From Gimesia sp. (GTDB taxonomy: Bacteria > Planctomycetota > Planctomycetia > Planctomycetales > Planctomycetaceae), in the NCBI RefSeq assembly GCF_040219335.1, contig NZ_JAVJSQ010000020.1:124001-188000 (forward strand): a stretch of 64,000 nucleotides of DNA, read 5' to 3'. The notes beneath the pieces are model-generated. The model ran no database searches. It was given only the letters and a program-made list of their open reading frames with translations, and was not told where the DNA came from. The translations under genes were made by a program, and so were the position numbers. Shown piece by piece: positions 25,035-40,304 of this stretch (the first letter of the stretch is position 1; each line of letters begins with the position of its first letter).

Positions 25035-25562
25035 ATGAATGAAGTTATCGTCAACAATGAGTTCTTTCAGCTGCTGTTACAGCATCAGGGGCCCTTGCAC
25101 GCTTACGTACTTTCCCTGGTAGGTAATACTACTGATGCCCGAGATTTACTGCAGGACATCAATCAGTGTCTGCTCGAAAAACGGGACACCTTCACCCCGG
25201 ACAGTAATTTCCTGGCCTGGTCTCGCAAAGTTGCTTTTTACAAGATCCAGTCATACTGGCGTGACAAACACCGTAACCGCCTGCTGTTCGACGACGAGTT
25301 ACTCAACAGCATGTCCGAGACCATCGACAGCCTGCCCGATCTATATAACGAGCAGATCGAAGCCCTCAAATCTTGTATCAACCACCTGCCTGCTGACAAA
25401 CAGACCATGATGCAACAACGCTACGGGCAATTCATGCCTCTCAAACAAATTGCTGACTACTGGGGAAAATCGGAAAAAGCGATCAGCGTCATGCTCTTGC
25501 GGATACGCTTGCGGCTTCAGGATTGCATCCAGAAAACACTCTCTGCAAGGCCCCGCATCTGA
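25035..25562 (+). CDS. ECF-type sigma factor paired with FecR
   Basis: A 175-residue sigma-70 family factor. Region 2 has ARDLLQDINQCLLEK and SNFLAWSRKVAFYKIQSYWRDK; region 4 has a helix-turn-helix around LKQIADYWGKSEKAISVMLLRIR. It matches the style of planctomycete/verrucomicrobial sigma factors found next to FecR proteins. Its TGA overlaps the ATG of the FecR gene (TGATG at 25560-25564), so the two are translationally coupled, the usual arrangement for a sigma factor and its membrane regulator. Confidence 0.9.
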   Translation: MNEVIVNNEFFQLLLQHQGPLHAYVLSLVGNTTDARDLLQDINQCLLEKRDTFTPDSNFLAWSRKVAFYKIQSYWRDKHRNRLLFDDELLNSMSETIDSLPDLYNEQIEALKSCINHLPADKQTMMQQRYGQFMPLKQIADYWGKSEKAISVMLLRIRLRLQDCIQKTLSARPRI

Positions 25563-26929
25563 TGATCTCTGAAAACACTTCGAACTGGGAAGACCCCCTG
25601 CCCCGGCTGGTCGCTCTGTATTTCGATCAGCGACTGGATGAGTCCGAACTGCAGCAGTTGCAGACGCGACTGAAAACGGACCCGGATGCAAGAGTCTTTT
25701 TCGCTCAGTTTTCGATCCTGCAGACTCAGCTGGAATGGGTCTGCACCGACTCAGTCTCACCACGAGAAATGACTCATATTCCGGCCTCCTATCACGCCAG
25801 AGCGCGTAACTGGAATCTGATTCTCTATATCTCATGCTGTATCTGCCTGGCGATCGGCGGACTGTTTTTCATGTATCTGACAACTCCCGTCGCTCACGTT
25901 TATCCAACCGCTGACAGCCACTGGGAATCCGGTTTGATCGCAGATGAGGAAACGCTGCTTTCAGGTTCGCGCAGACAGCTGTCGAGAGGTGCCATAGAAA
26001 TTCGCTTCACTTCCGGATCGATCGTTAACCTGCAGGCACCAGCGCTGTTTACAATCCAGGGATCGAATGCGGTCTTTCTGGAAGCGGGAAAGCTGGTTGC
26101 CGACATCCCTGAAGCAGGACATGGCTTTACCGTGGAAACACAGTCCGGTCAGATTGTGGATCTTGGCACATCTTTTTCCGTAACCGTAGAGGCGGACCGA
26201 AACACGGAAGTCAAAGTCTATCGGGGTAAAGTCCAGGTCGCTGGTACAACAGATTCGCAAACTCCACTCGACCTGTCAGCCAACCACGCGGTGGAGATCG
26301 ACTCCATATCCAGGTCAATCCTGCCTCGGGACTATACCAGCAGCGATTTCATCCCACTGATTGCCCGCGATTACAGCGTAGACAGTTTCAGCGAAAATGT
26401 TGTGTTTCAGGAACAGTTTCCGGATCAGATCGCCCGGGGAGAGTTTCAGCTTCTTGAACGAGATGGCACAGTCTTTCTCTTTCCCGAACTGAGAGAGATC
26501 CAGCTCTACAATAACCTCAATGTCTCCATCAGCCAGCCTGGCAGCTACTGGTCCTACGAGCAGATAGAAACGGATACCGATTTCATCCCGCGGGGAATGA
26601 AAGTCGACTGCTACCGACTCTATTACGATCCAGCCAGCAACAAGAATGACATGCTGCCGGTAGAAGGCACGATTCACTTTCATCAGCCTGTGTTGGGAAT
26701 GATTACCACCAGAAACCGGCTGCTGGAAACCGACCACATTCTCAATCCCCTTTGCCAGGGAGGCAACTGCCCTCAGATTAAACACCAGGAAATCGAAACC
26801 CGAGTATCAGAGAATGGCAGCCGCCAGGACATCATTACACTCTCCGAAGACCGCAAAACGCTCAACTTCAAACTATTCACAGGTACAAACTACATCGATG
26901 AATTCAGGGTGCTGGTTGCAGCCCCCTAG
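25562..26929 (+). CDS. FecR-domain transmembrane anti-sigma/regulator protein
   Basis: A 455-residue single-pass membrane protein starting at the ATG that overlaps the sigma factor stop. The cytoplasmic head (about 1-80) contains LPRLVALYFDQRLDESELQQ, like the sigma-binding part of such proteins. One helix lies at about 85-110 (LILYISCCICLAIGGLFFMYL). The FecR domain spans about 130-255 (LSRGAIEIRFTSGSIVNLQA, then VDLGTSFSVTV and VKVYRGKVQV). The last 170 residues are an extracytoplasmic beta-rich region without the LamG domain commonly fused in planctomycetes. A DUF1559 pseudopilin and a small lipoprotein gene follow and may be the regulated genes. Confidence 0.88.
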   Translation: MISENTSNWEDPLPRLVALYFDQRLDESELQQLQTRLKTDPDARVFFAQFSILQTQLEWVCTDSVSPREMTHIPASYHARARNWNLILYISCCICLAIGGLFFMYLTTPVAHVYPTADSHWESGLIADEETLLSGSRRQLSRGAIEIRFTSGSIVNLQAPALFTIQGSNAVFLEAGKLVADIPEAGHGFTVETQSGQIVDLGTSFSVTVEADRNTEVKVYRGKVQVAGTTDSQTPLDLSANHAVEIDSISRSILPRDYTSSDFIPLIARDYSVDSFSENVVFQEQFPDQIARGEFQLLERDGTVFLFPELREIQLYNNLNVSISQPGSYWSYEQIETDTDFIPRGMKVDCYRLYYDPASNKNDMLPVEGTIHFHQPVLGMITTRNRLLETDHILNPLCQGGNCPQIKHQEIETRVSENGSRQDIITLSEDRKTLNFKLFTGTNYIDEFRVLVAAP

Positions 26930-27056: not shown

Positions 27057-28094
27057 ATGAAACCTGATCGTTCTGCTAAATACGTTCGAGGCTTCACATT
27101 AATTGAGTTACTCGTTGTAATCGCGATTATCGCAATTTTAATTGCCTTACTGCTGCCTGCAGTTCAACAGGCTCGCGAAGCGGCGCGGCGCTCGCAATGC
27201 AAAAACAATCTCAAACAGTTCGGTCTGGCGATGCACAACTATGCCGACACGCATGGTGTGCTGCCCTGCCTGAAGGGAGGCGCAGGGGGAGATGTATCCG
27301 GTGCAGGACTGTTAGACACCGGAACGGGCAACCGCAGCTGGATGAGCGGCATTGTCTTTCTGCTTCCCTTCCTCGACCAGGCACCTCTGTGGAACCAGAT
27401 CTCGAGTCTACCCGGTCAGGGAGGCCGACCGAATGATCCCAATTCGTTTCCCCAACCTCATCTGGCTCTCATGCTCTGCCCCTCCTCACCTGTGCCACCA
27501 CGTGCAGAAGGTGGACTGGCACCTCGCAGCTACTGCTTGAGCGTAGGGGACACCATCAATGACAACATCTCTTCCAAGAATCCCCGCGGGCCTTTTGGCT
27601 GGCTCTCTGACACCCGGATGCGTGATTTTCTGGATGGGACCAGCAATACCATTCTGATGGCAGAACGAGAACTGGGAGGCACCGGATCCTTTCTGGGGCG
27701 TGCTGCCGCTTCCATCTCCAACCTGGACACGAACCCCGCAGCCTGCCTGAGTACGATTTCAGGGAACACCTATAACGTCACCATGGACGGTCATCGGATG
27801 GGTCAGCGCTGGGCCATCGGATATCCGTTTTACTCCGGGATCACCACGGTACTTCCGCCGAACAGTCCTTCCTGCTCTTCGAGCGGACACCAGGGATGGG
27901 GCATCTATTCTGCCAGTAGCCTGCACACAGGTGGCTGCCACGTGTTGATGGGAGATGGTGCGGTACGCTTTGTCAGTGAAAATATCGATTCCGGTTTCCC
28001 CTCTGATCCACAGGTGACGACCGGTCCCAGCCCCTACGGTGTCTGGGGCGCATTGGGAACCATGAGTGGATCGGAAACCATTGGAGAGTTTTAA
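27057..28094 (+). CDS. DUF1559 pseudopilin (type IV prepilin leader)
   Basis: A 345-residue protein of the planctomycete DUF1559 family. It begins with a prepilin peptidase site [20 protein letters not shown] followed by the family's LLPAVQQAREAARRSQC and NNLKQFGLAMHNYADTHG. A C-terminal block (GGCHVLMGDGAVRFVSENID) gives the usual H-x-x-x-x-M-x-D-G-S/A-V-R-F end signature. AAAGGAG precedes the ATG by about 8 bases. Such proteins are thought to form pseudopilus-like structures; direct function is unknown. It lies 127 bases after the FecR gene and 37 bases before a small lipoprotein gene. Confidence 0.93.
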   Translation: MKPDRSAKYVRGFTLIELLVVIAIIAILIALLLPAVQQAREAARRSQCKNNLKQFGLAMHNYADTHGVLPCLKGGAGGDVSGAGLLDTGTGNRSWMSGIVFLLPFLDQAPLWNQISSLPGQGGRPNDPNSFPQPHLALMLCPSSPVPPRAEGGLAPRSYCLSVGDTINDNISSKNPRGPFGWLSDTRMRDFLDGTSNTILMAERELGGTGSFLGRAAASISNLDTNPAACLSTISGNTYNVTMDGHRMGQRWAIGYPFYSGITTVLPPNSPSCSSSGHQGWGIYSASSLHTGGCHVLMGDGAVRFVSENIDSGFPSDPQVTTGPSPYGVWGALGTMSGSETIGEF

Positions 28095-28455: not shown

Positions 28456-30234
28456 TCAACCAGCGTGAGCTCTTGTTTGCGGCGGATTCTGTTCTTGAGA
28501 ATTGGAATTCTTTTCCTTACGAGTCAACTGCAGCACGAGAAACCCCTCTCCCCTGTATTTCAGAATTAATCGGATCGCTCCTTTGTAATGCTGTTTTAGA
28601 TAAGAGTCGATCAGTGGAACCTGTTTCTCGCGCGTGATCAAATACATTTGATCTGAATCGATTAACTCATCCATCGGCGACTGAATTTTGTAAGCACGCA
28701 GCTTCTCCTGAAAATGGGGAGATTGCTGCAGCCCATTCAAGAACAGAAACTTGAAATCCCTGATTTCGGATTGATTGTCATAGGGCAGAAAACTCTCAAT
28801 GGGAAGCATCCACATACTGACAAACACCTTCTCAGGCCAGCGTTGGTGCATTTCCGTCAGATTCTGTTTGAAACCAGCATTCCTGGCCACAAGATGATCT
28901 GACCACTTTTTCTGATCCCAGACCAGTAACGCACATCCCAGCAGCAGAATGACGACACCGATTTTAAACAGAACCCCTCGAGAGGGAGATTGCGTATCAG
29001 TTGTCACATTCCAACCGGTCTGATTCAGGAGCAACGTGAAATAGAAGGGAAGTGAAATCAGACAGGTCAAGACCCGCGAAGGCAATTTCAAATAAACGAT
29101 CAGCATGATCATTATCAGGACCACCCAGAATAGAGTCCATCTGATAATGGAACGTTGCCAGGACCGTCTCTGGTTCAGCCGATTGAAGACAATTGTAGCA
29201 TAAAGACAAATCAGGAAAACCGGATGCACGGCTGCATGTCGGGCCGAGTGAATCCAGGCTTTTTTTACCTGGGGAAATTCACTGAGCTTTAGAGCATCCG
29301 TTTTTTCTTTGAACTTCTGTAGTCGTTCCAGGCTGTATGTATCCTGATCGAGATAGACCCACTCCCGCAGCATCTGGTAATCCGTATTACTCCAGCCGAC
29401 TTCGTCGAAGATGGGTTTCGTCGTTTCTACATAAGGAATTTGCGTGTAGTTGATTAATAGAGCTGTTACAGAATGGTAAGGCAGAAAGACGCGCCACGCT
29501 TCATCCTGCTGGTAGTATTGGCGATCATAATATTGCCCCCCCAGCACTCCACAGATCGCAAGAGTTGCAGGCAGGAGATAAGGTTTCAGTTTATTGCTCC
29601 TGGCCATCTGCCATCCGATGACTATCAGAATTGGCAGACTTGCCAGACACAACATTTGCAGACTCGCATAACGAATCAGACTGGCATAAATCAGACAAGC
29701 GGCACCTTCCCATTTGAGCCAGGGAAGATGACTCCCTCGTTGATCCTGAAACAGGCTGACGATCACCAGTGACAGACCGGCCAGGCCGACCATAAATGCC
29801 GTCGTGGTGAATTGCAGATGAGCCAGAAAGTAAATCCCGACTCCCAGATAAAAAATCAGGTAGCTCAAAACCGAGAACTTGTTTCGGCTCAATAGCAGAA
29901 TGGCATACAACAACAACCAGTGCGCCAAAAACTGAGAAAGCAGCAGATAACTGCCGTACCATGGAACATCGGGAGCGACAGAGTAAAGCTGTTTCAGAGT
30001 GCTTCCCAATAGCACATTCGAATACAGCAGGTGCTCATCAGGCCCCTTGACCGTTCCGTATCCGGATGCAACCAGCGCCATAACAGGGTCGTCGTTGGTG
30101 TCATAAGTGGGCGTCATCAGCAGATGTGTCAACCCAAACAACAAGATCACAACACCTGCTGCGCAACGCGCCGGTGACTGGCAGTACCAGTTCAATAGAG
30201 TGGAGATTCTGGATTGTTCTTCCTGGGACGACAT
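28456..30234 (-). CDS. GT-C-like multi-pass membrane protein, paralogue A
   Basis: A 592-residue integral membrane protein with about 11-12 helices and a soluble C-terminal part. After the first helix an acidic motif TNDDPVMALVASGYG lies in the first outer loop, where GT-C glycosyltransferases keep their catalytic Asp. GPDEHLLYSN and VPWYGSYLLL follow. The end has a soluble domain with FLPYDNQSEI. I predict a polyprenyl-phosphate-sugar-dependent glycosyltransferase, by fold logic only; no family is recognised with certainty. It is clearly paralogous to the gene at 36850-38622 over its whole length, and the two bracket the amino-sugar cluster in opposite orientation. Confidence 0.7.
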   Translation of the reverse strand: MSSQEEQSRISTLLNWYCQSPARCAAGVVILLFGLTHLLMTPTYDTNDDPVMALVASGYGTVKGPDEHLLYSNVLLGSTLKQLYSVAPDVPWYGSYLLLSQFLAHWLLLYAILLLSRNKFSVLSYLIFYLGVGIYFLAHLQFTTTAFMVGLAGLSLVIVSLFQDQRGSHLPWLKWEGAACLIYASLIRYASLQMLCLASLPILIVIGWQMARSNKLKPYLLPATLAICGVLGGQYYDRQYYQQDEAWRVFLPYHSVTALLINYTQIPYVETTKPIFDEVGWSNTDYQMLREWVYLDQDTYSLERLQKFKEKTDALKLSEFPQVKKAWIHSARHAAVHPVFLICLYATIVFNRLNQRRSWQRSIIRWTLFWVVLIMIMLIVYLKLPSRVLTCLISLPFYFTLLLNQTGWNVTTDTQSPSRGVLFKIGVVILLLGCALLVWDQKKWSDHLVARNAGFKQNLTEMHQRWPEKVFVSMWMLPIESFLPYDNQSEIRDFKFLFLNGLQQSPHFQEKLRAYKIQSPMDELIDSDQMYLITREKQVPLIDSYLKQHYKGAIRLILKYRGEGFLVLQLTRKEKNSNSQEQNPPQTRAHAG

Positions 30235-30574
30235 CGGCTACCAGTCGAAAGTGAAATAGCGGGAATAACAGACAATATCCGATACAAAAGCAAAATATAT
30301 ACCAGTTCCACTGCGTCGGGTTATAACAATAATCCGGATTAGAGATCTCATGCATCCGCAAAGAACGCTGAAATCCTCTAGAAAAGCCCCCTCCAATAGC
30401 AGTAACCTCGTTAGTCTCACCGTTTCGAATTACGGGGACCCGGCGCTGAGCAAATGGCACTGTTGTTGCTATTACATAGTTCATATTTGACTCAGTTTCG
30501 CAAATCATGATCGGCCAAGATGATAATGCACCTGACCTCGTCAGGGGTGATGTACATAATTGGATACATTTTGT
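30235..30574. other. Divergent promoter region of the amino-sugar cluster
   Basis: About 340 bases between the start of GT-C-like paralogue A (minus) and the aminotransferase gene (plus). Both promoters should be here. I see no strong hairpin or repeat. Minus-strand frames through it show no protein-like features. Confidence 0.4.
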
Positions 30575-31786
30575 ATGGCGTCGTTAATCCCGTTCAACAA
30601 ACCGTTTTTTGCTGGTAAAGAACTGCATTATATTGCCCAGGCAGTCACGCTGGGAAATATCTCTGGAGATGGTGATTTTGCGCGGCGCTGTGTGGAGATT
30701 ATGCAACAGCGTTTCCACGTTCATAAGATCCTCCTCACACCGTCCTGTACGGCGGCCCTGGAGTTGTCAGCCATGCTGCTGGAGCTTCAACCTGGTGACG
30801 AAGTCATCATGCCATCCTATACTTTTGTTTCGACGGCCAACGCCTTCGCCCGCATGGGAGCGAAACCCGTGTTTGTCGATATCCGTCCCGATACGCTCAA
30901 CATGGATGAACGACTGGTCGAGGAAGCGATTACCGAAAAGACCAAAGCGATCGTCCCCGTGCATTATGCCGGCGTCGGTTGCGAAATGGATCTTATCCTG
31001 ACGATCGCCGACAAATATGGACTGCGTGTGATTGAAGATGCAGCGCAAGGCGTGAACGCCCAATACCAGAACCAGTATCTTGGTTCGCTGGGTGACCTGG
31101 GTTGCTACAGTTTCCATGAAACGAAAAACTTCATCTGTGGTGAAGGAGGCGCAATCTGCCTGAACTCAGAAGAGTTCGTCGACCGGGCACACGTTCTGCG
31201 CGATAAAGGAACCAATCGGCAGGCATTCTTCCAGGGACTCGTAGATAAATACACCTGGTGCGACATCGGTTCTTCCTTTGTATTAAGCGAATTGAACTGT
31301 GCGTTCCTCTATGCACAACTGGAAATGTTTGACGAGATCAATCAGAAACGTCAGCAGATCTATGAACTCTACAGGCAGAGCCTGCAACCACTCGAAGAAG
31401 CTCAGTTACTGCGTATGCCCCGGATTCCGGAAGACTGCGTCAGTAATCATCACATGTTTTACATTCTACTTCCCAGTAAAACGGTGCGGGATGGACTGCT
31501 GGCTCATTTAAAGGAGCAACAGATTCATGCCGTCTTCCATTACATTCCACTACACACTTCCCCCGTCGGACAGACATGGGGATATCGTGAGGGAGACTTG
31601 CCGGTTACGGAGCAATGTGCGGCGTGTTTACTGCGTCTTCCTTTCTACTATGAAATTACCCCTGAAGAACAGCAACTGGTCGTTTGCGAAATAGAAAAGT
31701 TTCTAACCAAAAATGTTTCTCAGTCCCTGTTGCCAGACAGTTTACAGTTGAAGACTGATTTTCAACGCCCTCTCGATACCCCTTAA
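30575..31786 (+). CDS. wecE: dTDP-4-amino-4,6-dideoxygalactose transaminase-like (WecE/RffA type)
   Basis: A 403-residue PLP-dependent sugar aminotransferase of the DegT/DnrJ/EryC1/StrS family. The sequence follows E. coli WecE closely along its length: IPFNKPFFAGKEL, LLTPSCTAALELSAMLL, GDEVIMPSYTFVSTANAF, VPVHYAGVGCEMD, VIEDAAQG (Asp155, PLP pyridine contact), SFHETKN (Lys184, Schiff base), DKGTNR and VDKYTWCDIGSS. WecE converts dTDP-4-keto-6-deoxyglucose to dTDP-4-amino-4,6-dideoxygalactose, using glutamate. I use the ATG at 30575; a TTG five codons earlier is possible, and neither has a good ribosome-binding site. The dTDP-glucose synthesis genes (rmlA/rmlB types) and an N-acetyltransferase are not in this window. 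Confidence 0.92.
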   Translation: MASLIPFNKPFFAGKELHYIAQAVTLGNISGDGDFARRCVEIMQQRFHVHKILLTPSCTAALELSAMLLELQPGDEVIMPSYTFVSTANAFARMGAKPVFVDIRPDTLNMDERLVEEAITEKTKAIVPVHYAGVGCEMDLILTIADKYGLRVIEDAAQGVNAQYQNQYLGSLGDLGCYSFHETKNFICGEGGAICLNSEEFVDRAHVLRDKGTNRQAFFQGLVDKYTWCDIGSSFVLSELNCAFLYAQLEMFDEINQKRQQIYELYRQSLQPLEEAQLLRMPRIPEDCVSNHHMFYILLPSKTVRDGLLAHLKEQQIHAVFHYIPLHTSPVGQTWGYREGDLPVTEQCAACLLRLPFYYEITPEEQQLVVCEIEKFLTKNVSQSLLPDSLQLKTDFQRPLDTP

Positions 31787-31794
31787 AAGTTACC

Positions 31795-31820
31795 GACAAT
31801 GAAAATCACTCTTCATTGTC
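31795..31820 (+). terminator. Stem-loop between wecE-like and glycosyltransferase genes
   Basis: Perfect 9-bp stem GACAATGAA / TTCATTGTC with an 8-base loop. No T-run follows, so it may be an mRNA stability or processing element inside the operon rather than a full terminator. Confidence 0.4.
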
Positions 31821-31850
31821 ATTCAAGTTTACATATTTCAGATTGATACG

Positions 31851-32816
31851 ATGAAAGTTTCTGTATCAAAATCAGGACCGCTAATCAGTGTCGTGACTCC
31901 GGTATACGGAGCACACGACCTGCTGGAAGAGCTTTATGCTCGCCTCATCCAGGCTTTATCCCAGATTACTGAAGATTATGAAATCATCATGGTCAATGAT
32001 GCCAGTCCCGATGATTCCTGGTGTCTGATCCAGCGGTTCGCAACACAGAATTCTCGACTTAAAGGAGTCAATTTATCGAGAAATTTTGGCCAGCATCATG
32101 CGATTACAGCCGGCCTGGAATTCGCCCGAGGGAAATGGGTTGTTGTCATGGATTGTGATCTGCAAGATCAACCTGAAGAAATCCCCAAGCTGTATCAAAC
32201 TGCTCAACAGGGATTTGATGTGGTAGTCGGGATTCGTCACACCAGACAGGACACCACAATCAAGAAGCTATGTTCTCGCTATTTTTACAAGGTATTTGCC
32301 TATTTCACCAATACCAGAATTGAACACCAGATAGGAAATTTCGGTATTTATTCGCGCAAGGTCATTCGGAGTATTTTGAAATTTAAGGAACAGACAAGAT
32401 CGTTTGGACTCTTTGTGATCTGGGCTGGTTTCCGCAGAATCGAGATCCCGATAGAACATGCAAAACGCCCCACCGGAAAGTCTACCTATAACTTCCCCCG
32501 TATGATCAGCCTGGCTTTCAACTCTATTATTGCCTACTCCAACAAGCTATTAATCCTCTTTGTCAAACTGGGATTTCTGCTGGCTGGTTTTTCGTTCCTG
32601 TTTACACTGTGGTTACTTTTCCGTTACGTCATCTGGGGAATTCCAGTTATTGGCTGGACCAGCTTAATCGTTTCCATATATTTGTCGACCGGATTGATGA
32701 TCATGGTTGTGGGAGCAGTAGGAATCTACATCGGAAAAATCTTCGATGAAGTCAAAGGCAGACCGCTCTACCTGATCGAGTCAACCACCTTCGAACTGGA
32801 TTCTGACGATGAATAA
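31851..32816 (+). CDS. Polyprenyl-phosphate glycosyltransferase, GT2 (DPM1/ArnC/GtrB type)
   Basis: A 321-residue enzyme predicted to transfer a sugar from a nucleotide to undecaprenyl phosphate on the cytoplasmic face. The GT-A domain (1-215) shows VVTPVYGAHDLLEEL, VNDASPDDSW, LSRNFGQHHAITAGLEFARG and the D-x-D motif MDCDLQDQPEE (Asp101, Asp103). Two membrane helices follow (about 233-260 and 270-298), exactly as in GtrB/ArnC proteins. It overlaps the next gene by 8 bases. Its sugar could be the amino-sugar made by the WecE-type enzyme (inference from context). Confidence 0.9.
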   Translation: MKVSVSKSGPLISVVTPVYGAHDLLEELYARLIQALSQITEDYEIIMVNDASPDDSWCLIQRFATQNSRLKGVNLSRNFGQHHAITAGLEFARGKWVVVMDCDLQDQPEEIPKLYQTAQQGFDVVVGIRHTRQDTTIKKLCSRYFYKVFAYFTNTRIEHQIGNFGIYSRKVIRSILKFKEQTRSFGLFVIWAGFRRIEIPIEHAKRPTGKSTYNFPRMISLAFNSIIAYSNKLLILFVKLGFLLAGFSFLFTLWLLFRYVIWGIPVIGWTSLIVSIYLSTGLMIMVVGAVGIYIGKIFDEVKGRPLYLIESTTFELDSDDE

Positions 32817-33954
32817 ACCTTTCAAGCTGGGATTTATCGGTGGTGGAATTAATTCCGCCGTCGGAACGACACATTTTATTGCCGCACAGATGGATGATCG
32901 TTTTCGAGTGAAAGCAGGCTGTTTCAGCCGAAATCCCGAAATCAATCGTCAAACCGCCGAACGATGGGGCGTTTCCCCGGAACGGAACTATGCGACTTTT
33001 GCTGAATTGCTGGAACAGGAACAAGGACGACTGGATGCAATTGTGGTTCTGACTCCCACTCCAGACCATGTCGAACCGGTCGTTCAGGCGTTTCGCCGAG
33101 GATACGCTGTGATCTGTGAAAAGTCTCTCGCCAGCAACATTGAAGACGCGTTAGTGATACGTCAGGCTCAACTGCAGCATGGCAACTTCCTGGCAGTGAC
33201 CTACAATTATACGGGCTATCCGATGCTGCGGGAGCTCAAATATCAGATCGATGAAGGCCTGTTAGGGGCCATTCAACAGATTCATATTGAAATGCCTCAG
33301 GAGGGTTATGCACGGCTGAACCGAGATGGAGAGCCTATGCTCCCCCAGGAATGGCGCCTGCATGATGCCGAACTTCCCACCCTTTCTCTGGACCTGGGTG
33401 GCCATGTCCACAATATCATCGACTTCCTTTCAGGAAAGAACCCACAGAAACTGGTGGCACTCCAGAGTAGTCAGGGACGGTTCAGCCAGGTCATAGATAA
33501 TTTGCTTTGCGTTGCCGAATACACGGGGGGACTCACGTGTAACATCTGGTACAGTAAATGTGCACTGGGCTATCGCAACGGGTTGCGTGTTCGTGTATTT
33601 GGGGAACGGGGCGCGGCTGAATGGCTGCAGATGGAGCCGGAGTATTTAATCTGCCATGACCATAAGGGGCACAAAACCATTCTGGATCGGGCAAGTGTTG
33701 ATACAGGAATAGCGCATCTGGCCCGGTATAACCGCTTCAAGTCAGGTCATCCAGCCGGTTTTCTTGAAGCATTCGGAAATCTTTACTGGGATATCGCGGA
33801 CAGTCTGCAACAGTTTCAACAGACTGGGACCCAACAGAATATGGAATACGTGTTTGAAACCGGACATGCACTGGAGGGGTTGGTCATGTTTGACGCGATG
33901 TCTCGGTCGTCAGAATCAAATCAATGGGTCTCTGTCATCGTTCCAGAGAAATAA
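32809..33954 (+). CDS. Gfo/Idh/MocA family oxidoreductase in the amino-sugar cluster
   Basis: A 381-residue NAD(P)-dependent sugar dehydrogenase-like protein. The Rossmann loop is GFIGGGINSAVGTTHF (Gly-rich, with an insertion), the EKP-type motif is ICEKSLASN (EKS variant), and the substrate domain has LDLGGHVHNIIDFL with the likely catalytic His. It overlaps the genes on both sides (8 bases before; TAATG with the next one), so it belongs to the same operon. It may oxidise or epimerise the sugar or its acceptor. Confidence 0.85.
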   Translation: MNKPFKLGFIGGGINSAVGTTHFIAAQMDDRFRVKAGCFSRNPEINRQTAERWGVSPERNYATFAELLEQEQGRLDAIVVLTPTPDHVEPVVQAFRRGYAVICEKSLASNIEDALVIRQAQLQHGNFLAVTYNYTGYPMLRELKYQIDEGLLGAIQQIHIEMPQEGYARLNRDGEPMLPQEWRLHDAELPTLSLDLGGHVHNIIDFLSGKNPQKLVALQSSQGRFSQVIDNLLCVAEYTGGLTCNIWYSKCALGYRNGLRVRVFGERGAAEWLQMEPEYLICHDHKGHKTILDRASVDTGIAHLARYNRFKSGHPAGFLEAFGNLYWDIADSLQQFQQTGTQQNMEYVFETGHALEGLVMFDAMSRSSESNQWVSVIVPEK

Positions 33955-35048
33955 TGAGTGCCATGAGTATTGAACTAACGCTCGACAGTTATCCGGATGA
34001 TCCCGAAAAAATTGCATTCTGCACTGATTTTCTGGAGGGTAAATCCCCGCGATATCTATTGGGGCGTAATCAGTGGGCACAAAGTATCAGTCGTCATCTC
34101 AATGTTGCTGGATTTATTGATGAGTATTGTCACGAGAGTGAATTTCTCGGGAAACCTGTACTCTCGTTAGATGAAGTACCAGATAACGGAATTGTTGTTT
34201 CGACAGTCGTGGGAATTTTGCCATTGACGGTCGCTCTAAAATTATCGGAACGAAACATCCGCCATATTGATTACTTTGCATTTCGCAGGTACTCGGGCCT
34301 TACCTTGGAGCCAGTGTTGTTCTGGGATGAATTCATCACAGATTATTCGCGACATCAGGAAAAATATGAGAAGGTTTATTGTTGTCTGAAAGATCAGCAA
34401 TCTAGAACGATATACGAAAACCTGATCAATTTCCGTCTGTCCGGCGATCTATCATACATGGATGGATTTGAAGATCGACAGCACCAGCAATACTTTGAAG
34501 ACTTTCTCAATCTGAAAAACCAGGGGGAAGTCTTTCTTGACGTCGGCTGTTTCGACGGCTTGACCAGTCTGGAATTTATTAAACGCTGTCCTGAATATGC
34601 CGGCATTCATATTTTTGAACCTGAACCTGGGAATCTAAAGGTCGTTCGGAAGAATCTGGCTGACTACCCGCGTATTGTTTTTCATGACTGTGGGTTATCT
34701 GATCACAGCCAGACCTTGCGATTTTCTGCTGATGGATCCTCTTCCCGTGTGAGCGATCAGGGAGAGTTGCAGATTCAGGTAGAACGTCTGGATGACGTCA
34801 TAAAGGGGCCCGGTTCCTTCATCAAAATGGATATTGAGGGTGCTGAAATTGAGGCTCTTCGAGGGGCACGACATACAATTCTTGAGCATCATCCGAAACT
34901 GGCAATCTGTGTTTACCATCGTGCTGACGACTTCTGGAAAATCCCTGAAACGGTATTCTCGATCCGAGATGATTATGATCTCTACCTGAGGCATTACACC
35001 GAAGGAGTCACTGAAACCGTCATGTTTTTTATTCCTGCTGGGAATTGA
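33954..35048 (+). CDS. FkbM-family methyltransferase with N-terminal Rossmann-like domain
   Basis: A 364-residue protein. The start ATG overlaps the preceding TAA (TAATG), indicating coupled translation; an ATG at 33963 is an alternative. Residues about 25-125 have the look of a PglD-type nucleotide/sugar-binding domain (GFIDEYCHESEFLGKPVL, then IVVSTVVG). Residues about 190-355 are a FkbM-type SAM methyltransferase: EVFLDVGCFDGLTSLEFI, IHIFEPEPGN and the signature FIKMDIEGAEIEALRGA. These enzymes usually O-methylate sugars or polyketides. By context the target would be a sugar in the lipid-linked product. Confidence 0.85.
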   Translation: MSAMSIELTLDSYPDDPEKIAFCTDFLEGKSPRYLLGRNQWAQSISRHLNVAGFIDEYCHESEFLGKPVLSLDEVPDNGIVVSTVVGILPLTVALKLSERNIRHIDYFAFRRYSGLTLEPVLFWDEFITDYSRHQEKYEKVYCCLKDQQSRTIYENLINFRLSGDLSYMDGFEDRQHQQYFEDFLNLKNQGEVFLDVGCFDGLTSLEFIKRCPEYAGIHIFEPEPGNLKVVRKNLADYPRIVFHDCGLSDHSQTLRFSADGSSSRVSDQGELQIQVERLDDVIKGPGSFIKMDIEGAEIEALRGARHTILEHHPKLAICVYHRADDFWKIPETVFSIRDDYDLYLRHYTEGVTETVMFFIPAGN

Positions 35049-35049
35049 G

Positions 35050-36234
35050 ATGCCCGTTAAAAAACGACTGTTAATTGCTGGAGGTGGATACGCAGAAATC
35101 CCTCTGATCCTGGCAGCTAAAAGACTGGGATTTCATGTCATCACCAGCGGTAACCGTGCAGATGACCTGGGACATCGCCATGCTGATGAAATCCATCTGG
35201 AAGACTTTTCCAATAAGAACGCCATGTTACAACTGGCACGCTCGCTGGAAATCGATGCGATCTGCGCTTCCTGCAACGATTTTTCTGCTCTGACTGCAGC
35301 CTACATTGCCGAACAAATGCAGTTACCAGGTCATGATCCTTATGAAACTGCAGTTTTGATTCATCATAAAGACCTCTATCGTGAATTCGCACAGGAAAAT
35401 CAGATACCCACTCCGCGGGCGGCCGGTTTCGAATCCATCCAGCAAGCATTGGATCAGTTGGATTTGTTTCAGTTTCCGGTAATGATTAAACCCGTTGATC
35501 TCACCGGGGGAAAAGGTATCACCAAGCTCGAACGAATCGATAATGCCAGAACTGTCCTAGAACAGGCATTCCAGATCTCACGCGCCAAACGGATCGTGAT
35601 CGAGGAATTTATGGAAGGAAGTCGACATGGTTTTTCCAGTTTTCTGCGCGACGGTCGGGTTGTGTTCTGCTTTCAGGATAACGAACACTATTTTCAGAAT
35701 CCGTATCTGGTCTCGGCTGCTTCGACGCCAGCCATTGTCCCTGCAACAACGGAAGCAACTCTCTGTCAACAGGCCGAGCACATGGCCAGCCTGCTCAATT
35801 TGAAAACGGGAATATTTCACATTCAGTATATCCTCCACCAGGGAGAACCCGTCATCATTGAAATCTGCCGGAGGGCACCTGGGGATTTATATATTCAGTT
35901 TGTTCAGCATGCGACGGGAATTAACTATGCTGAATTCATTATTCGCGCGGCAACCGGACTGGATTGTGGAGGAATAAACCAGAAAGAACCTACTGGTTAT
36001 TTTACCCGTCACTGTATTATGCCATCCCGCAACGGTTTGATTGAAGATGTGATCTATGCCCCTGAAATTCGCGATCAGATTATCGACCAGATGCTCTGGT
36101 GGGAACGTGGCGAACAGATCGATCAGTTTCTGGTTCAAAAACAGGGAATTGTATTTTTGCAATTCGAATCGCTTCAGGAAATGTTGACCAGAACAGAAGT
36201 ATTGCCAGAACTGATTCGAGTTGAAATGAAGTAG
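35050..36234 (+). CDS. ATP-grasp ligase in the amino-sugar cluster
   Basis: A 394-residue ATP-grasp enzyme of the carbamoyl-phosphate-synthase-like type. The N-terminal Rossmann-like domain (1-105) begins RLLIAGGGYAEIPLILAAKRLG. The ATP-grasp core shows FPVMIKPVDLTGGKGI (142-157), IVIEEFMEGSRHGFS and the magnesium site VIIEICRRAPGD near residue 275. Such enzymes join a carboxylate to an amine through an acyl phosphate. A natural hypothesis is amide formation between an amino acid or other acid and the amino group installed by the WecE-type enzyme. One base separates it from the preceding stop codon. Confidence 0.88.
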   Translation: MPVKKRLLIAGGGYAEIPLILAAKRLGFHVITSGNRADDLGHRHADEIHLEDFSNKNAMLQLARSLEIDAICASCNDFSALTAAYIAEQMQLPGHDPYETAVLIHHKDLYREFAQENQIPTPRAAGFESIQQALDQLDLFQFPVMIKPVDLTGGKGITKLERIDNARTVLEQAFQISRAKRIVIEEFMEGSRHGFSSFLRDGRVVFCFQDNEHYFQNPYLVSAASTPAIVPATTEATLCQQAEHMASLLNLKTGIFHIQYILHQGEPVIIEICRRAPGDLYIQFVQHATGINYAEFIIRAATGLDCGGINQKEPTGYFTRHCIMPSRNGLIEDVIYAPEIRDQIIDQMLWWERGEQIDQFLVQKQGIVFLQFESLQEMLTRTEVLPELIRVEMK

Positions 36235-36265
36235 CAAGTTAACCCCAAGAGATGAAACCAGATCT

Positions 36266-36679
36266 ATGAATCATTTCTTTATTCTAGGAACGATTTTTTT
36301 TACCGTATACGGCCAGCTCATCCTCAAGTGGCGGATCGGCAGATACGGTGACTTACCAGACAGTCTCTCGGACCGAATCCAGTTTCTGTTTCGACTTTTA
36401 CTTGACGGATATATTTTGAGTGGTTTCATCGCTGCTTTTATCGCATCCTTATTCTGGATGGCGGCGATGACGAAATTTCCGTTAAGCTATGCCTATCCGT
36501 TTATGAGCCTGGCATTTGTTCTGGTAATGTTCCTCAGTGCCTTTTTTTTCAATGAACCGGTTACGCTGGCCAAAACACTGGGTCTGGCGCTGATTGTGAC
36601 GGGAATTATCATCGGCAGTCAGGGAGTGACATCTGATAAAACAGATACTCCTTCATCTTCACTCTCTGCAAAGGACTAA
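36266..36679 (+). CDS. Small EamA/EmrE-like membrane protein (ArnE/ArnF-like)
   Basis: A 137-residue protein with four predicted helices and a short polar tail. It has the features of the small multidrug resistance/EamA group: an N-terminal helix with a polar residue (FTVYGQLILKWRIGRYG) and a last pair of helices (PLSYAYPFMSLAFVLVMFLS, LGLALIVTGIIIGSQG). ArnE/ArnF, which flip undecaprenyl-phosphate-aminoarabinose, have this size and pattern, including the G-Q-x-x-x-K motif. By context I predict a flippase subunit for a lipid-linked sugar. It follows the ATP-grasp gene by 31 bases. Confidence 0.78.
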   Translation: MNHFFILGTIFFTVYGQLILKWRIGRYGDLPDSLSDRIQFLFRLLLDGYILSGFIAAFIASLFWMAAMTKFPLSYAYPFMSLAFVLVMFLSAFFFNEPVTLAKTLGLALIVTGIIIGSQGVTSDKTDTPSSSLSAKD

Positions 36680-36696
36680 TTCCAGTTCAACAAACA

Positions 36697-36729
36697 AAAA
36701 AAGGGCGGCAGATCTAAAATCAACCACCA
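36697..36729 (-). terminator. Degenerate copy of the minus-strand terminator at 38840-38873
   Basis: The bases AAAAAAAGGGCGGCAGATCT...ATCAACCACC match the terminator after the Cys-rich gene at most positions, including the A-run that reads as a T-run on the minus strand. No minus-strand gene ends here, so it looks like a relic copy or a bidirectional element after the small membrane protein gene. Confidence 0.45.
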
Positions 36730-36849
36730 GTATGCGGGCTGTTTTCTATTCAATCTCTGACCGGTGTTTACAAACGGGTACATATTTTGCTGTCAGCAAT
36801 CAAAACAGTATGTTTATGTTCCAAAATTCTACAGCACAGCTGAGTATCA

Positions 36850-38622
36850 ATGTCTACTCATGTTATCAAAACAGGAATGATGAGAGTGATTAACTGGTGT
36901 TACAAATCCACAGGGATCTGGACACTCGGAATTACAATTTGTCTGTTTGCAGTAACATTACTTCTGATTACTCCAGTCTATGACCAGCCAGATGACCCTA
37001 CTATGGCTCTGGTTGCATCAGGCTATGGAAATGTAGATGGACCGGATGAACATTTAATCTATTCCAATGTGCTGATTGGGTTGATTTTAAAGCAATTATA
37101 TCTGACAGCGCCACTTGTGCCTTGGTACGGAGGCTATTTACTTTTGATTCAATTTCTGGCCCACTGGATACTGCTTTATGCCTTGCTACTGCTGAATCGC
37201 GATTATCGCTGTGTTCTGGGTTACCTGCTTTTTTACCTGGTGGTGGGTGTCTACCTTCTGACGCATATTCAGTTCACGACGTCTGCATTTCTAATTGGGA
37301 TGGCCGGCCTGGCGGTAATACTAGTGAGTCTGTTTCTGGACTTAGCAGGATCCCACTGCCGCTGGCTGAAGTGGCTGGGGGCTTTGTGCCTGATCATCTC
37401 CAGCCTGATTCGATTTACCTCATTTCAAATGTTGGTTCTGGCCAGTGTGCCATTAGTTCTGGCTTGTGTATTTCATTATTTCAAAGTGATTAAATTAAAA
37501 GCGTATCTGGTTCCTGCAGTTGTAGCCATCATCGGAGTATCAAGCTGTAAAATGTATGATACACACTACTATCAGCAGGATGATGACTGGCGAAACTTCA
37601 TTCAATATCATGTTGCAGTTGCTCAAGTGAGTAACAATGTCCTTGTTCCATATACAGAAGAAACCAGGCAAGTTTTTGATAATGCGGGTTGGAGCTATGC
37701 CGACTATCTGATGATTCGTGACTTTAATTATCTTGATTCAGAAACGTTCAGTTCAGCAAACCTAAGAAGATTTGACAAACAAAAGAATGCTACTAATCTG
37801 CGGAAGCACCCTCAAGTTTTGCAGGCTCGCGTGAATGCATTTAAGAATTTATTTACCAATTCAGTTTCAGTGATCTCTCTCATTGCGGCCATCTTCTTTG
37901 CGTCTCTTAACCGGAAAAACTGCTGGCAACGATCTATCGTCAAGTGGCTGCTGATGTGGAGTGCTCTGATCATGTTAGGGTTGATAATCTACAAGAAATT
38001 ACCAGAACGAGTATTTATACCTTTAACTGCGTTACCATTTTACCTGTCCCTATTGCTAAACCTTCCCGATCTTTCCTCGCAGATAAAAAATCAGAAATTC
38101 AAAAAGCATTTTGTATTTCGGACGGGAGTCCTGCTTCTTTTCCTTGCTGCAACAGCCTCTGCCTGGGGACAGGTAAAACGATCAGACCTGATGGTGATGG
38201 GAAATATCAGATTTAAGAATGATTTAAAAAATCTGCAAGGGAGTTGGCCAGACAAAGTGTTCCTCGCGCAGTGCAGATTTCCAGTTGATTTATTTCTGCC
38301 CCTCGATAACCAGTCGGAAATTCAGGGAATGAAGTGGCTGTACTTGACAGGGAGGCAGAAATCACCTTTGTTTCAACAGAAAATGAAAGAGTATGGAATT
38401 CATTCAGCTTATACAGAACTATATGAAACAGATCGTCTCTACTTAATAATGCTTCCCAGATTTATTCCTCTGTTCGAATCCTATCTCAAACAGCATTACG
38501 ACGTTGATCTGGAATTCAAAAATGTTTACTCGGGAGGACATTTTCAAGTTTATCGTGTCAGTACCTCTGAAAGAGATAAGAACACGAATAATGAAATGGA
38601 GCACTCCGCGATTAAAGAGTAA
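36850..38622 (+). CDS. GT-C-like multi-pass membrane protein, paralogue B
   Basis: A 590-residue integral membrane protein, paralogous to the gene at 28456-30234 end to end: QPDDPTMALVASGYG in the first outer loop, GPDEHLIYSN, VPWYGGYLLL, LLKQLY-type spacing, YYQQDDDWR and the C-terminal FLPLDNQSEI. About 11-12 helices then a soluble end. The acidic first loop suggests a GT-C glycosyltransferase that takes a sugar from a polyprenyl carrier outside the membrane. Codon use is slightly more AT-rich than in neighbouring genes. It ends the amino-sugar block; a 170-base gap separates it from the small transporter gene. Confidence 0.7.
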   Translation: MSTHVIKTGMMRVINWCYKSTGIWTLGITICLFAVTLLLITPVYDQPDDPTMALVASGYGNVDGPDEHLIYSNVLIGLILKQLYLTAPLVPWYGGYLLLIQFLAHWILLYALLLLNRDYRCVLGYLLFYLVVGVYLLTHIQFTTSAFLIGMAGLAVILVSLFLDLAGSHCRWLKWLGALCLIISSLIRFTSFQMLVLASVPLVLACVFHYFKVIKLKAYLVPAVVAIIGVSSCKMYDTHYYQQDDDWRNFIQYHVAVAQVSNNVLVPYTEETRQVFDNAGWSYADYLMIRDFNYLDSETFSSANLRRFDKQKNATNLRKHPQVLQARVNAFKNLFTNSVSVISLIAAIFFASLNRKNCWQRSIVKWLLMWSALIMLGLIIYKKLPERVFIPLTALPFYLSLLLNLPDLSSQIKNQKFKKHFVFRTGVLLLFLAATASAWGQVKRSDLMVMGNIRFKNDLKNLQGSWPDKVFLAQCRFPVDLFLPLDNQSEIQGMKWLYLTGRQKSPLFQQKMKEYGIHSAYTELYETDRLYLIMLPRFIPLFESYLKQHYDVDLEFKNVYSGGHFQVYRVSTSERDKNTNNEMEHSAIKE

Positions 38623-38924: not shown

Positions 38925-40304
38925 CTAGTTGCTACAAGTCTTCGGCTCTGGTGCAGTGCAGGTCTTGGGTGCCGGAGCCGTACAGGTTGGCTGCGGGCAG
39001 CAGACGGGCACTTTACGACAGACCTGTCGCGGTACACAACGTGTCTTGGTTACACAGACGGTACGTGGAACACATTTGGTCCGGGTAACATACCGTGTGC
39101 AGCAGACCTGCTCACAGGTTGTGTAAGGAACTTTGCGAGTACAGGTTTTTTGCTCATAGGTGCAGGTTGTGTAAGGAACCTTGCGGGTCCGACACTCTTC
39201 AACCATGGTGCAAGTGGTGTAAGGAACCTGTTTCGTTACGCATTCTTCCTTCCAGCAGCAGGTGGTGTAAGGCACTTTGCGTGTCCGGCATTCACGTACC
39301 ATTTTGCAGGTTGTGTAAGGAACCTTCTTGGTCCGTGTTTCGCACTCGTAACGCACGCAGGTGTAAGGCACCTTACGGGTAACGCAGCAGGGAACTCGCT
39401 CACATACGGTGTAAGGAACCCGCTCGGTTACACATTCGCGTTTGTAAGTTGTGCAGCAGACTTTCTTGGTGACCGTCTTGGGGCACCAGATTCGTCGGCA
39501 GACTGTAGTGCCGGGGCACTGTACTTTCACTGTTTTGCAGCAACCGGGTTTGTAGACAGGGCAGCATGAGCTGCAGTCATATTCCCAGGTTCCTGGCTCA
39601 CAGACACATTTTTCTACAACCGGACCGGGGCAGTGTTCGGTAACCGTCTTCCATTCACCACAGCAGACTTCAACGTCGTGCCAGGTGTGGACAGGCTTGC
39701 AAACAGTGCGACAGACATCGCGGTAGCAGGTCTTGTAATTCGTTTTGTAGATCGTGCTGCAGACTTCACGGTAGTGAGTCTCGCAGATCGGACGTCTGAC
39801 GGTGTAGCAGACATCTCGGTAACAGGTGTTGTAAACCGGCTTGCAGACTGTGTAGCAGACGTCCCGGTAGCAGGTATTGTATACCGGGCGGCGGCGTTTA
39901 CAGGTCACAGTACGATAGCAGGTCTTGTAAACGGGACGGCAGACTTTGTAGCAGACATCCCGGTAACAGGTGTTGTAGACCGGTTTGCAGACCGTGTAGC
40001 ATTCATCACGGTAGCAGGTCTTGTAAACATTCTTAGTGTATTGAACGGGAACTTTTTCGCAGATCGTATCGTACACTGTCTTCTGACAGGTATAGTTCTG
40101 CTTTTCCCAAACGGTTTCAGTGACGGTTTTATAGCAGGTACTTGAGCACTCTTTGGCAGCACAGTAATCACCACAAGAAGTACATGCTTCTGTAGGACAA
40201 CACTTATATCTGCCTGCTCCCAGGTAACCTGCCTGGGCTTGCTCCCCAAAGCAGGCCATAATCAAAGCGGCCGCCAGAAGGGGAATCCAGGTTGCGTGTT
40301 TCAT
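38925..40304 (-). CDS. Cysteine-rich repeat envelope protein (planctomycete YTV type)
   Basis: A 459-residue exported protein with a signal peptide (WIPLLAAALIMACFGEQAQA) and very many cysteines. The N-terminal half repeats units such as CYRDVCYTVCKPVYNT (at least eight copies between about residues 95 and 205); the C-terminal half repeats RTRKVPYTTC-type units. This matches the planctomycete Cys-rich 'YTV' proteins associated with the disulfide-bonded cell wall or envelope, so a structural envelope role is likely. AGAGGA precedes the ATG. It is transcribed alone, with its own terminator, and has a 378-base upstream region. Confidence 0.88.
   Translation of the reverse strand: MKHATWIPLLAAALIMACFGEQAQAGYLGAGRYKCCPTEACTSCGDYCAAKECSSTCYKTVTETVWEKQNYTCQKTVYDTICEKVPVQYTKNVYKTCYRDECYTVCKPVYNTCYRDVCYKVCRPVYKTCYRTVTCKRRRPVYNTCYRDVCYTVCKPVYNTCYRDVCYTVRRPICETHYREVCSTIYKTNYKTCYRDVCRTVCKPVHTWHDVEVCCGEWKTVTEHCPGPVVEKCVCEPGTWEYDCSSCCPVYKPGCCKTVKVQCPGTTVCRRIWCPKTVTKKVCCTTYKRECVTERVPYTVCERVPCCVTRKVPYTCVRYECETRTKKVPYTTCKMVRECRTRKVPYTTCCWKEECVTKQVPYTTCTMVEECRTRKVPYTTCTYEQKTCTRKVPYTTCEQVCCTRYVTRTKCVPRTVCVTKTRCVPRQVCRKVPVCCPQPTCTAPAPKTCTAPEPKTCSN

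Follow-up and report, generated by a model that had tools for sequence, protein, structure and literature searches.

The locus analysed here, an eight-gene cluster within a 64,000-nucleotide stretch of a Gimesia sp. contig (the window), raises the question of which sugar its products assemble, and whether they do so through the Arn-like pathway that a preliminary description had proposed. We think it probable that the cluster makes an N-acylated Fuc4N (4-amino-4,6-dideoxy-D-galactose) and adds this to an extracytoplasmic acceptor.

Gene content and genomic slot

An ORF check of the window returned all eight ORFs within positions 28456–38622 (Table 1), and profile searches identified the DegT/WecE, GT2, Gfo/Idh/MocA, FkbM, ATP-grasp and EamA/ArnF-like (small membrane protein) families, with the two flanking membrane proteins giving no Pfam match at E 0.5. 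The gene set of the preliminary description is thereby borne out, as are the spacings of 8, 1, 1 and 31 bases that it gave: recomputation yields a gap of 64 between wecE and gt2, an overlap of 8 between gt2 and gfo, an overlap of 1 between gfo and fkbM with an ATGA start at 33954 (31 with the mechanical ORF), and gaps of 1, 31 and 170 for fkbM–grasp, grasp–arnF and arnF–gtcB, respectively. The aminotransferase probably starts at ATG 30575 and not at TTG 30560.

Table 1. Features of the island and of the edges of its slot, in window positions.
Feature	Position	Strand	Basis
gtcA, candidate GT-C glycosyltransferase with several membrane spans, divergent from the operon	28456..30234	-	No Pfam or NCBIfam match above cut-off
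WecE-type dTDP-4-keto-6-deoxyglucose 4-aminotransferase	30575..31786	+	NF008687, TIGR02379 above cut-off; mechanical ORF from TTG 30560
GT2 with C-terminal membrane segments, GtrB/ArnC-type polyprenyl-phosphate glycosyltransferase	31851..32816	+	Full-length GtrB/ArnC matches
Gfo/Idh/MocA oxidoreductase, putative acid or sugar tailoring	32809..33954	+	PF01408, PF22725, PF02894 above cut-off
FkbM-type methyltransferase with extra N-terminal domain	33954..35048	+	PF05050 46.1 (cut-off 22.7), TIGR01444 76.2 (cut-off 37.7); mechanical ORF from 33924
ATP-grasp ligase, proposed carboxylate-amine ligase acylating a 4-amino sugar	35050..36234	+	PF02786 44.3 (cut-off 19.8); PF01071, PF13535, PF02655 above cut-off
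Small SMR/EamA membrane protein, ArnE/F-like flippase candidate	36266..36679	+	PF00892 33.2 (cut-off 28.2)
gtcB, second GT-C-like membrane protein, gtcA paralogue	36850..38622	+	46–48% identity to gtcA
YTV-repeat protein, genus-conserved anchor at one slot edge, outside the pathway	38925..40304	-	Conservation in genus
DUF1559 prepilin-like protein, other slot edge, outside the pathway	27057..28094	+	PF07596

The cluster is an accessory island. Of the 17 genomes of the genus, 16, counting that of the island, carry the YTV-repeat anchor gene at 91% identity or more, and in these 16 the slot is full in two, variant in one and a remnant in one. The DUF1559 gene at the other edge is 99–100% identical, and in the same position, in relatives G022 and G012, and the slot carries integrase-domain ORFs in two relatives. 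Related genomes retain WecE, a GT2 and a GT-C and differ in the acyl module, which may be a NeuD/VioB protein (183, cut-off 161) with WbqC, a different ATP-grasp protein with a PglD_N/hexapeptide protein, or a WecD-like GNAT whose best match of 92–93 bits lies below the cut-off of 219.

The two flanking membrane proteins, gtcA and gtcB, are paralogues. Genome G063 has a single GT-C, nearer to gtcA (82%), so that the gtcA copy is kept alone there, and in G022 and G012 gtcA is reduced to remnants, with a 94% identical copy of gtcB in G022. A PDB sequence search with the GT-C-like proteins gave no match at E 0.1, an AlphaFold model built from four sequences reached a pLDDT of 40.5, too low to assign a fold, and a DD motif in the first loop is invariant across 11 aligned GT-C-like sequences. 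At the level of the order, the ATP-grasp protein (E <= 1e-30) occurs in seven genomes, four of which give no GT-C-like match (E <= 1e-8). Of 13 genomes that do give a GT-C-like match, in some cases to a fragment, 10 are without an ATP-grasp match. These counts contradict a fixed eight-gene set. That the whole set, or its core, turns up again in several phyla is more than chance.

Sugar supply and lipid-carrier enzymes

The aminotransferase scores 582 bits against NF008687 (cut-off 375) and 546 bits against TIGR02379 (cut-off 434.85), and shares 53% identity with E. coli WecE across 376 amino acids. RmlA (502 bits, cut-off 361) and RmlB (477 bits, cut-off 365) are encoded in the same genome. 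As judged from these sequence matches, the sugar built by the island would most likely be Fuc4N.

The GT2 matches the sequences of the solved structures of GtrB sll0501 (206 bits) and ArnC (165 bits) over its full length, GtrB being the best-scoring solved structure ahead of ArnC. It is 30% identical to E. coli ArnC and, at 186 bits against a cut-off of 529 for the ArnC equivalog, homologous only. With hydrophobic segments at 226–290, it appears to be a polyprenyl-phosphate GT2 with C-terminal membrane helices of the type found in three-component systems. For the small membrane protein, too, the relation to ArnF (60 bits, cut-off 99) and ArnE (40 bits, cut-off 92) is one of homology only. It is present in 11 of 50 ATP-grasp loci and has no match at E 1e-3 in four variant loci (L105, L109, L111 and L112), and is therefore no fixed part of the system.

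These results sustain the WecE-type aminotransferase, the 4-amino sugar and the polyprenyl-phosphate-type GT2 of the preliminary description, and its ArnE/F-like protein as a flippase candidate only. Where it assigned two helices to the GT2 and four to the ArnF-like protein, a simple hydropathy scan gives three strong segments in each, so that the helix counts are provisional.

The ATP-grasp ligase and its partners

The Pfam domain of the ATP-grasp protein and its conserved core residues (K107, K147, E185, E212, R274 and R275, invariant in 27 aligned sequences) place it in the ATP-grasp superfamily, and among its relatives of solved structure are 4dim, carbamoyl-phosphate synthase and two L-amino acid ligases, BL00235 and BacD. 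Its family occurs in ten phyla, as read from record titles, many of the records being metagenome bins. A phylum search gave matches in 2 of 392 genomes, with four candidates per genome scored where shown, and two further searches scored four or five candidates, so that absence in any of the three is weak evidence.

A 4-amino-sugar aminotransferase lies within eight ORFs of the ligase in 38 of 50 loci (35 model-confirmed WecE and three DesI-like) and in 7 of 10 new loci (one WecE and six DesI-like). WecE accounts for 29 of the 346 ORFs at most four positions from the ligase, versus 7 of 335 in the outer parts of the same loci. The remaining 12 of the 50 loci have no WecE or DesI-like aminotransferase within eight ORFs, some of their contigs being short. 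In two Selenomonad loci the ligase occurs apart from WecE, in one case within a lipid A operon. The preliminary description had named homologues scattered without co-occurrence as grounds for abandoning its proposal; with WecE and the ATP-grasp protein together in 35 of 50 loci, this pair does not show such scatter, and the ATP-grasp ligase of that description does accompany 4-amino-sugar aminotransferases. From this co-occurrence and from the module swaps we infer that ligation would take place at the C4 amine. Among the open-licence PMC papers listed in our searches we found none in which the ligase is paired with WecE or Fuc4N.

The partners that might supply the acid vary. In some loci Gfo is replaced by an SDR, or by a radical SAM protein with an aldehyde dehydrogenase, and the ligase is retained. 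DAHP synthases of at least three lineages occur in 9 of the 50 ligase loci, always within four ORFs and on the same strand, and the acid may therefore derive from the shikimate pathway. There is no DAHP synthase in the window, and a scan of 122 unlabelled neighbours of at least 140 amino acids on the ligase strand yielded no further shikimate genes among the 25 of 91 families that the result covers. In the island itself, the four closest solved structures to the Gfo protein are named merely as oxidoreductases. The domain matches of the FkbM protein, together with its predicted fold (pLDDT 91.4, Foldseek match to 2py6 across the whole length), place it among the FkbM methyltransferases. The idea that its N-terminal domain is a PglD_N-like sugar-binding domain is not supported, as five N-terminal pieces gave no Pfam match at E 1 and the window's piece alone gave no PDB sequence match. 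The substrate of FkbM and Gfo could also be the sugar instead of the acid.

Tentatively, and as a possibility that we do not favour strongly, these enzymes may belong to a family of sugar N-acyl ligases that is widespread and has moved horizontally. Its members would join acids of shikimate origin, in many cases O-methylated, to dTDP-Fuc4N or dTDP-Qui4N at the C4 amine, and the partners that make the acid would be exchangeable (Gfo, SDR, radical SAM plus aldehyde dehydrogenase, DAHP synthase). If so, they would constitute an unrecognised route by which bacterial surface sugars are capped with cyclic or aromatic acids, and the adjoining DAHP synthases would point to a possible metabolic source of the acid.

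Proposed pathway, known systems and rival readings

In the pathway that we propose, dTDP-4-keto-6-deoxyglucose would come from RmlA and RmlB, whose genes lie outside the island, and the WecE-type aminotransferase would convert it into dTDP-Fuc4N. A carboxylic acid, possibly of shikimate-pathway origin, would be made ready in O-methylated form by Gfo and FkbM and then coupled to the C4 amine by the ATP-grasp ligase, which would stand in for a WecD acetyltransferase. The GtrB/ArnC-like GT2 would then load the sugar onto polyprenyl phosphate, the ArnE/F-like protein would flip the lipid-linked sugar, and gtcA and/or gtcB would pass it on to a glycan or glycolipid of the cell surface. Curated models, or homology along the full length, underlie the enzyme families that we assign to dTDP-sugar formation, amination and lipid loading. 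Around these we infer the rest: the acid itself, whether acylation or loading comes first, the flipping, the GT-C transfer and its acceptor. If the pathway is right, N-acylation of 4-amino sugars would be a swappable step on the way to bacterial glycans, open to ATP-driven ligation as well as to acetyltransferases; the ligase family could help to predict where surface glycans bear unusual amide-linked acids, and the island would offer a concrete start on surface-glycan variation in a planctomycete genus.

Three-component systems (GtrA/GtrB/Gtr and GT136 pentofuranose), as described in excerpts of PMC11127046, combine a synthase of polyprenyl-phosphate sugars, a flippase, which in the Glc/Gal prototypes is of the SMR type, and a GT-C transferase in the membrane, and are variable in a serotype-like manner, as is the island. 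The island has the same component types, its flippase and GT-C being candidates only, and adds a WecE-made amino sugar, an oxidoreductase, a methyltransferase and an ATP-grasp ligase. By analogy, such a system (GT2, SMR-like flippase, GT-C-like protein), fed by dTDP-Fuc4N and with Gfo, FkbM and ATP-grasp at the N-acylation step, would be a better frame than Arn. The Fuc4NAc branch of enterobacterial common antigen (RffH/RffG, WecE, WecD, WecF) also has dTDP-Fuc4N made by WecE, and four related ligase loci carry GT56 (WecF-family) transferases, three of which score 269–397 against WecF models, below the cut-off of 457. The island differs in having an ATP-grasp module for WecD and a polyprenyl-phosphate-type GT2 instead of WecF, neither WecD nor WecF having a match among the window ORFs. 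The ATP-grasp carboxylate-amine ligases 4dim, BL00235, BacD and PylC, among the solved or curated relatives, share the ATP-grasp domain with the island ligase, whose proposed acceptor is instead a 4-amino sugar and whose family has its own neighbourhood. An 'ATP-grasp amino acyl ligase' has likewise been predicted within the surface-polysaccharide loci of CA_C2195; these have other partner genes, and the excerpt of PMC4000134 that describes them mentions neither WecE nor an aminotransferase.

Arn-like modification of lipid A, with a 4-amino sugar on undecaprenyl phosphate moved to lipid A by the GT-C proteins, strikes us as distinctly unlikely. The island does resemble ArnBCADTEF in its ArnC-like GT2 for a lipid carrier, its ArnE/F-like protein and its logic of flipping and GT-C transfer; LpxC is encoded in the genome (262 bits), lipid A therefore being likely present, and in locus L068 a ligase relative sits within a lipid A operon. 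The aminotransferase, however, scores 220 bits against the ArnB cut-off of 631 and passes both WecE models, a WecE standing in the place of ArnB; E. coli ArnA, ArnD and ArnT have no phmmer match at E < 0.05 among window ORFs of at least 90 amino acids; and the top solved GT2 is GtrB. On the ArnB score and the absence of ArnA, ArnD and ArnT from the window we reject Arn membership, which leaves the lipid-carrier logic of the 'Arn-like' pathway standing and its identity not.

More room, though still on the doubtful side, must be given to a reading in which what the ATP-grasp enzyme joins to Fuc4N is an ordinary amino acid, the sugar ring is the target of oxidation by Gfo and O-methylation by FkbM, and the DAHP synthases serve another step. 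The relationship to BL00235 and BacD speaks for it, as do known amino-acyl groups on amino-dideoxy sugars, such as the N-acetylalanyl group on Qui3N (excerpt of PMC3210612), whereas several DAHP synthase lineages adjoin the ligase, and the replacement of Gfo with retention of the ligase is better fitted by variable acid-making. We give very little credence to the island being a generic polysaccharide neighbourhood, an ordinary recombination hot spot in which nothing ties the ligase specifically to the 4-amino group. Unrelated modules do gather in surface-polysaccharide clusters, and the slot is variable, with integrase-domain ORFs in two relatives, but the ligase is paired with a C4 aminotransferase, WecE or DesI-like, in most of the original and new loci, and WecE is enriched in its immediate vicinity.

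Gene products of the window cluster

All eight open reading frames that the preliminary description had placed at 28456-38622 are present (see the table), and the intergenic spacing given there is borne out provided that the ATGA at 33954 is taken as the fkbM start. The gene names used here serve as labels. The cluster has a G+C content of 46.0% vs 52.1% for the remaining window. Its aminotransferase scores above the cut-offs of both WecE models (582 vs 375 and 546 vs 434.85), is the sole product of the cluster above an equivalog-level cut-off and shares 53% identity with E. coli WecE over 376 residues; it scores far under the ArnB cut-off (220 bits vs 631). RmlA and RmlB, required for the dTDP-sugar, are encoded elsewhere in the genome, as is LpxC. 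The GT2 aligns along its length with the solved-structure sequences of GtrB sll0501 (206 bits) and ArnC (165 bits), and the ArnF-like protein is an ArnE/F homologue scoring under the cut-offs for both ArnE and ArnF. The ATP-grasp protein (the ligase) exceeds the cut-offs of four Pfam ATP-grasp families, and its profile matches, among solved structures, 4dim at E 9e-41; its weaker matches include carbamoyl-phosphate synthase, L-amino acid ligase BL00235 and BacD. The predicted model of the FkbM protein (pLDDT 91.4) matches 2py6 over its entire length, its N-terminal domain having no Pfam match, and the four solved structures nearest to the Gfo protein are annotated only as oxidoreductases.

Features of the window and of ligase or related loci (L-handles)
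Feature	Location	Strand
gtcA (candidate GT-C)	window 28456-30234	minus
wecE, gt2, gfo, fkbM, grasp, arnF, gtcB, in this order	window	plus
Sigma-70-like protein overlapping FecR-like protein, immediately 5' of the slot	window 25035-26929	
YTV-repeat protein, cysteine-rich, near-identical genus-wide	window 38925-40304	minus
Phage-integrase-domain ORFs in the slot of two relatives	L158:6247-7455; L159:2583-3782	
Ligase, two-ORF split radical SAM, aldehyde dehydrogenase, between LpxA and LpxI-like gene (Selenomonadaceae bin)	L068:7594-14642	
Near-ligase proteins of one family, 769-787 aa	L024:7597-9960; L040:12315-14666; L065:5439-7748	
DAHP synthase, then two transketolase halves, close to the ligase	L064:4127-6849	
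DAHP synthase, class II	L027, L031, L032, L058	
DAHP synthase, AroFGH type	L064, L066	
DAHP synthase, type I-beta	L067, L070	
Related DAHP synthase with chorismate-mutase part	L069	

A variable slot and its exchanged modules

The YTV gene, which marks one edge of the slot, occurs at 91% identity or above (91-100%) in 16 of the 17 genus genomes, the window's own included, the anchor match in the seventeenth (G078) being merely 42%. Among these 16 genomes the slot holds the full cluster in two (the window's own and G063), a variant in one (G022) and a gtcA remnant in one (G012), and the cluster is absent from the slot in ten; G027 carries it at a different site, its slot being without it. In the other two of the 16 (G065 and G106, with contig ends close by) the slot contains ORFs with phage-integrase domains, which makes the site on the 3' side of the YTV gene a possible integration hot spot. 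Of the two GT-C genes, G063 has a gtcA-like copy alone and G022 has gtcB, which suggests that the window cluster is a composite of two versions.

In G022 the proteins flanking the slot are 88-100% identical to those of the window, and the slot encodes WecE (91%), GtcB (94%), an HTTM protein, a WbqC-family protein, a gtcA remnant, an ArnC-like GT2 different from that of the window (ArnC model, 194 vs 529) and a NeuD/VioB-type acetyltransferase (TIGR03570, 183 vs 161). Outside its slot, G106 combines a GT-C protein, WecE (80%), an HTTM protein and a PglD_N/hexapeptide protein with a GT2 of 32% identity to ours and a different, carbamoyl-phosphate-synthase-like ATP-grasp protein (204 vs 218). G105 and G049 group a distant GT-C (25%), a GT2 (ArnC model in G105, 200 vs 529) and WecE (573 vs 375 in G105; 56% identity in G049), adjoined on the opposite strand by a convergent GNAT for which WecD is the top-scoring named family (92-93 bits, under the cut-off of 219). 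From this gene content, the parts common to the variants are WecE, GT2 and the candidate GT-C. The variable part occupies the position at which an N-acyl group would be introduced, and this is the main reason for assigning the ligase to the amine. An ArnF-like protein was not found in these four variant loci (E 1e-3, segments of at least 60 aa), which counts against a fixed flippase. The component families are all known; the combination, probably of the three-component glycosylation kind, is a new variant, and no report linking the ligase to WecE or Fuc4N was found in the open-licence literature searched.

Distribution and neighbours of the ligase

Within the order, 7 of 150 genomes contain the ligase (E <= 1e-30) and 13 contain the GT-C family, in some cases just as fragments (E <= 1e-8); three (G000, G027 and G063) have both, and the pairing is hence not obligate. 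A phylum scan, mostly with four candidates scored per genome, found the ligase in 2 of 392 genomes, and a pattern scan of a species-genome collection, built on a 7-sequence alignment, gave 48 loci. Four duplicate contigs (L042, L054, L056, L059) and L071, with too little ligase, were dropped, and adding the window and six loci found in relatives to the remaining 43 gave the 50 counted. The ligase tree covers ten phyla (as labelled in records, many of metagenome bins). The window, G063, G027 and L024 form one supported group (98/96) and the remaining planctomycete copies (L020; L021-L023) fall outside it, a split suggestive of repeated transfer.

Neighbours were labelled by best phmmer match (E limit 1e-8 where window genes and 1e-5 where neighbour probes were matched), and therefore weak family members are counted too. 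Within eight ORFs of the ligase, a WecE-type aminotransferase (threshold 300 bits) is found in 35 of the 50 loci, all 35 matched by WecE models at E <= 1e-112; three loci have another DegT enzyme, with DesI as best model but under its cut-off (266-289 vs 650), and 12 have neither. Over the same distance we found GT2 (28/50), FkbM (27), Gfo (22), Gfo with FkbM (19), ArnF-like proteins (11), one radical SAM family (11), DAHP synthase (9), SDR (8) and a second Gfo type (6). The 769-787 aa family is found where FkbM is absent in L024 and L040 and adjoins FkbM in L065; the L040 member, the only one scanned, has GT2 and radical SAM domains. The ligase stretch of L068 is part of a lipid A operon, with WecE absent within eight ORFs.

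Replication searches centred on two further genomes (covering 395 and 369 genomes, mostly with 4-5 candidates scored) gave 12 loci besides the two starting ones, 10 of them new once duplicates, recognised by their gene order and the length of the contig (L183 = L039, L184 = L048), were removed; eight of the ten ligases are more divergent (136-206 bits against that of the window). WecE is present in one (616 bits), a DesI-like aminotransferase in six (best model DesI, 252-476 bits, below the cut-off of 650) and neither nearby in three (L181, L187, L190). Gfo, FkbM and ligase recur together in L180, L186 and L190.

DAHP synthases and a possible source of the acid

Each of the nine DAHP synthases is encoded 1-4 ORFs away from the ligase and on its strand. 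NCBIfam scoring covered five, the remaining four being labelled via phmmer to these: L064 and L067 are above a DAHP synthase cut-off, L027 is slightly below (601 vs 615; Pfam 631 vs 27), and L058 (405 vs 615) and L069 (167 vs 335) are far under. DAHP synthase accounts for 9 of 346 ORFs within four of the ligase vs 0 of 335 farther out in the same loci (Fisher P 0.004), and for nine in 50 loci P = 2.5e-6 under a generous null of three per 2000 genes, assuming independent loci. Because some of these loci are mutually related, the number of independent events, estimated from the tree, may be about five. One new locus, L180, also has a DAHP synthase, and the set of Gfo, FkbM, ligase and WecE seen in the window recurs in L031, L058 and L180, all DAHP synthase loci. 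In FK506, FkbM methylates a shikimate-derived ring. The transketolase halves of L064 could supply erythrose-4-phosphate.
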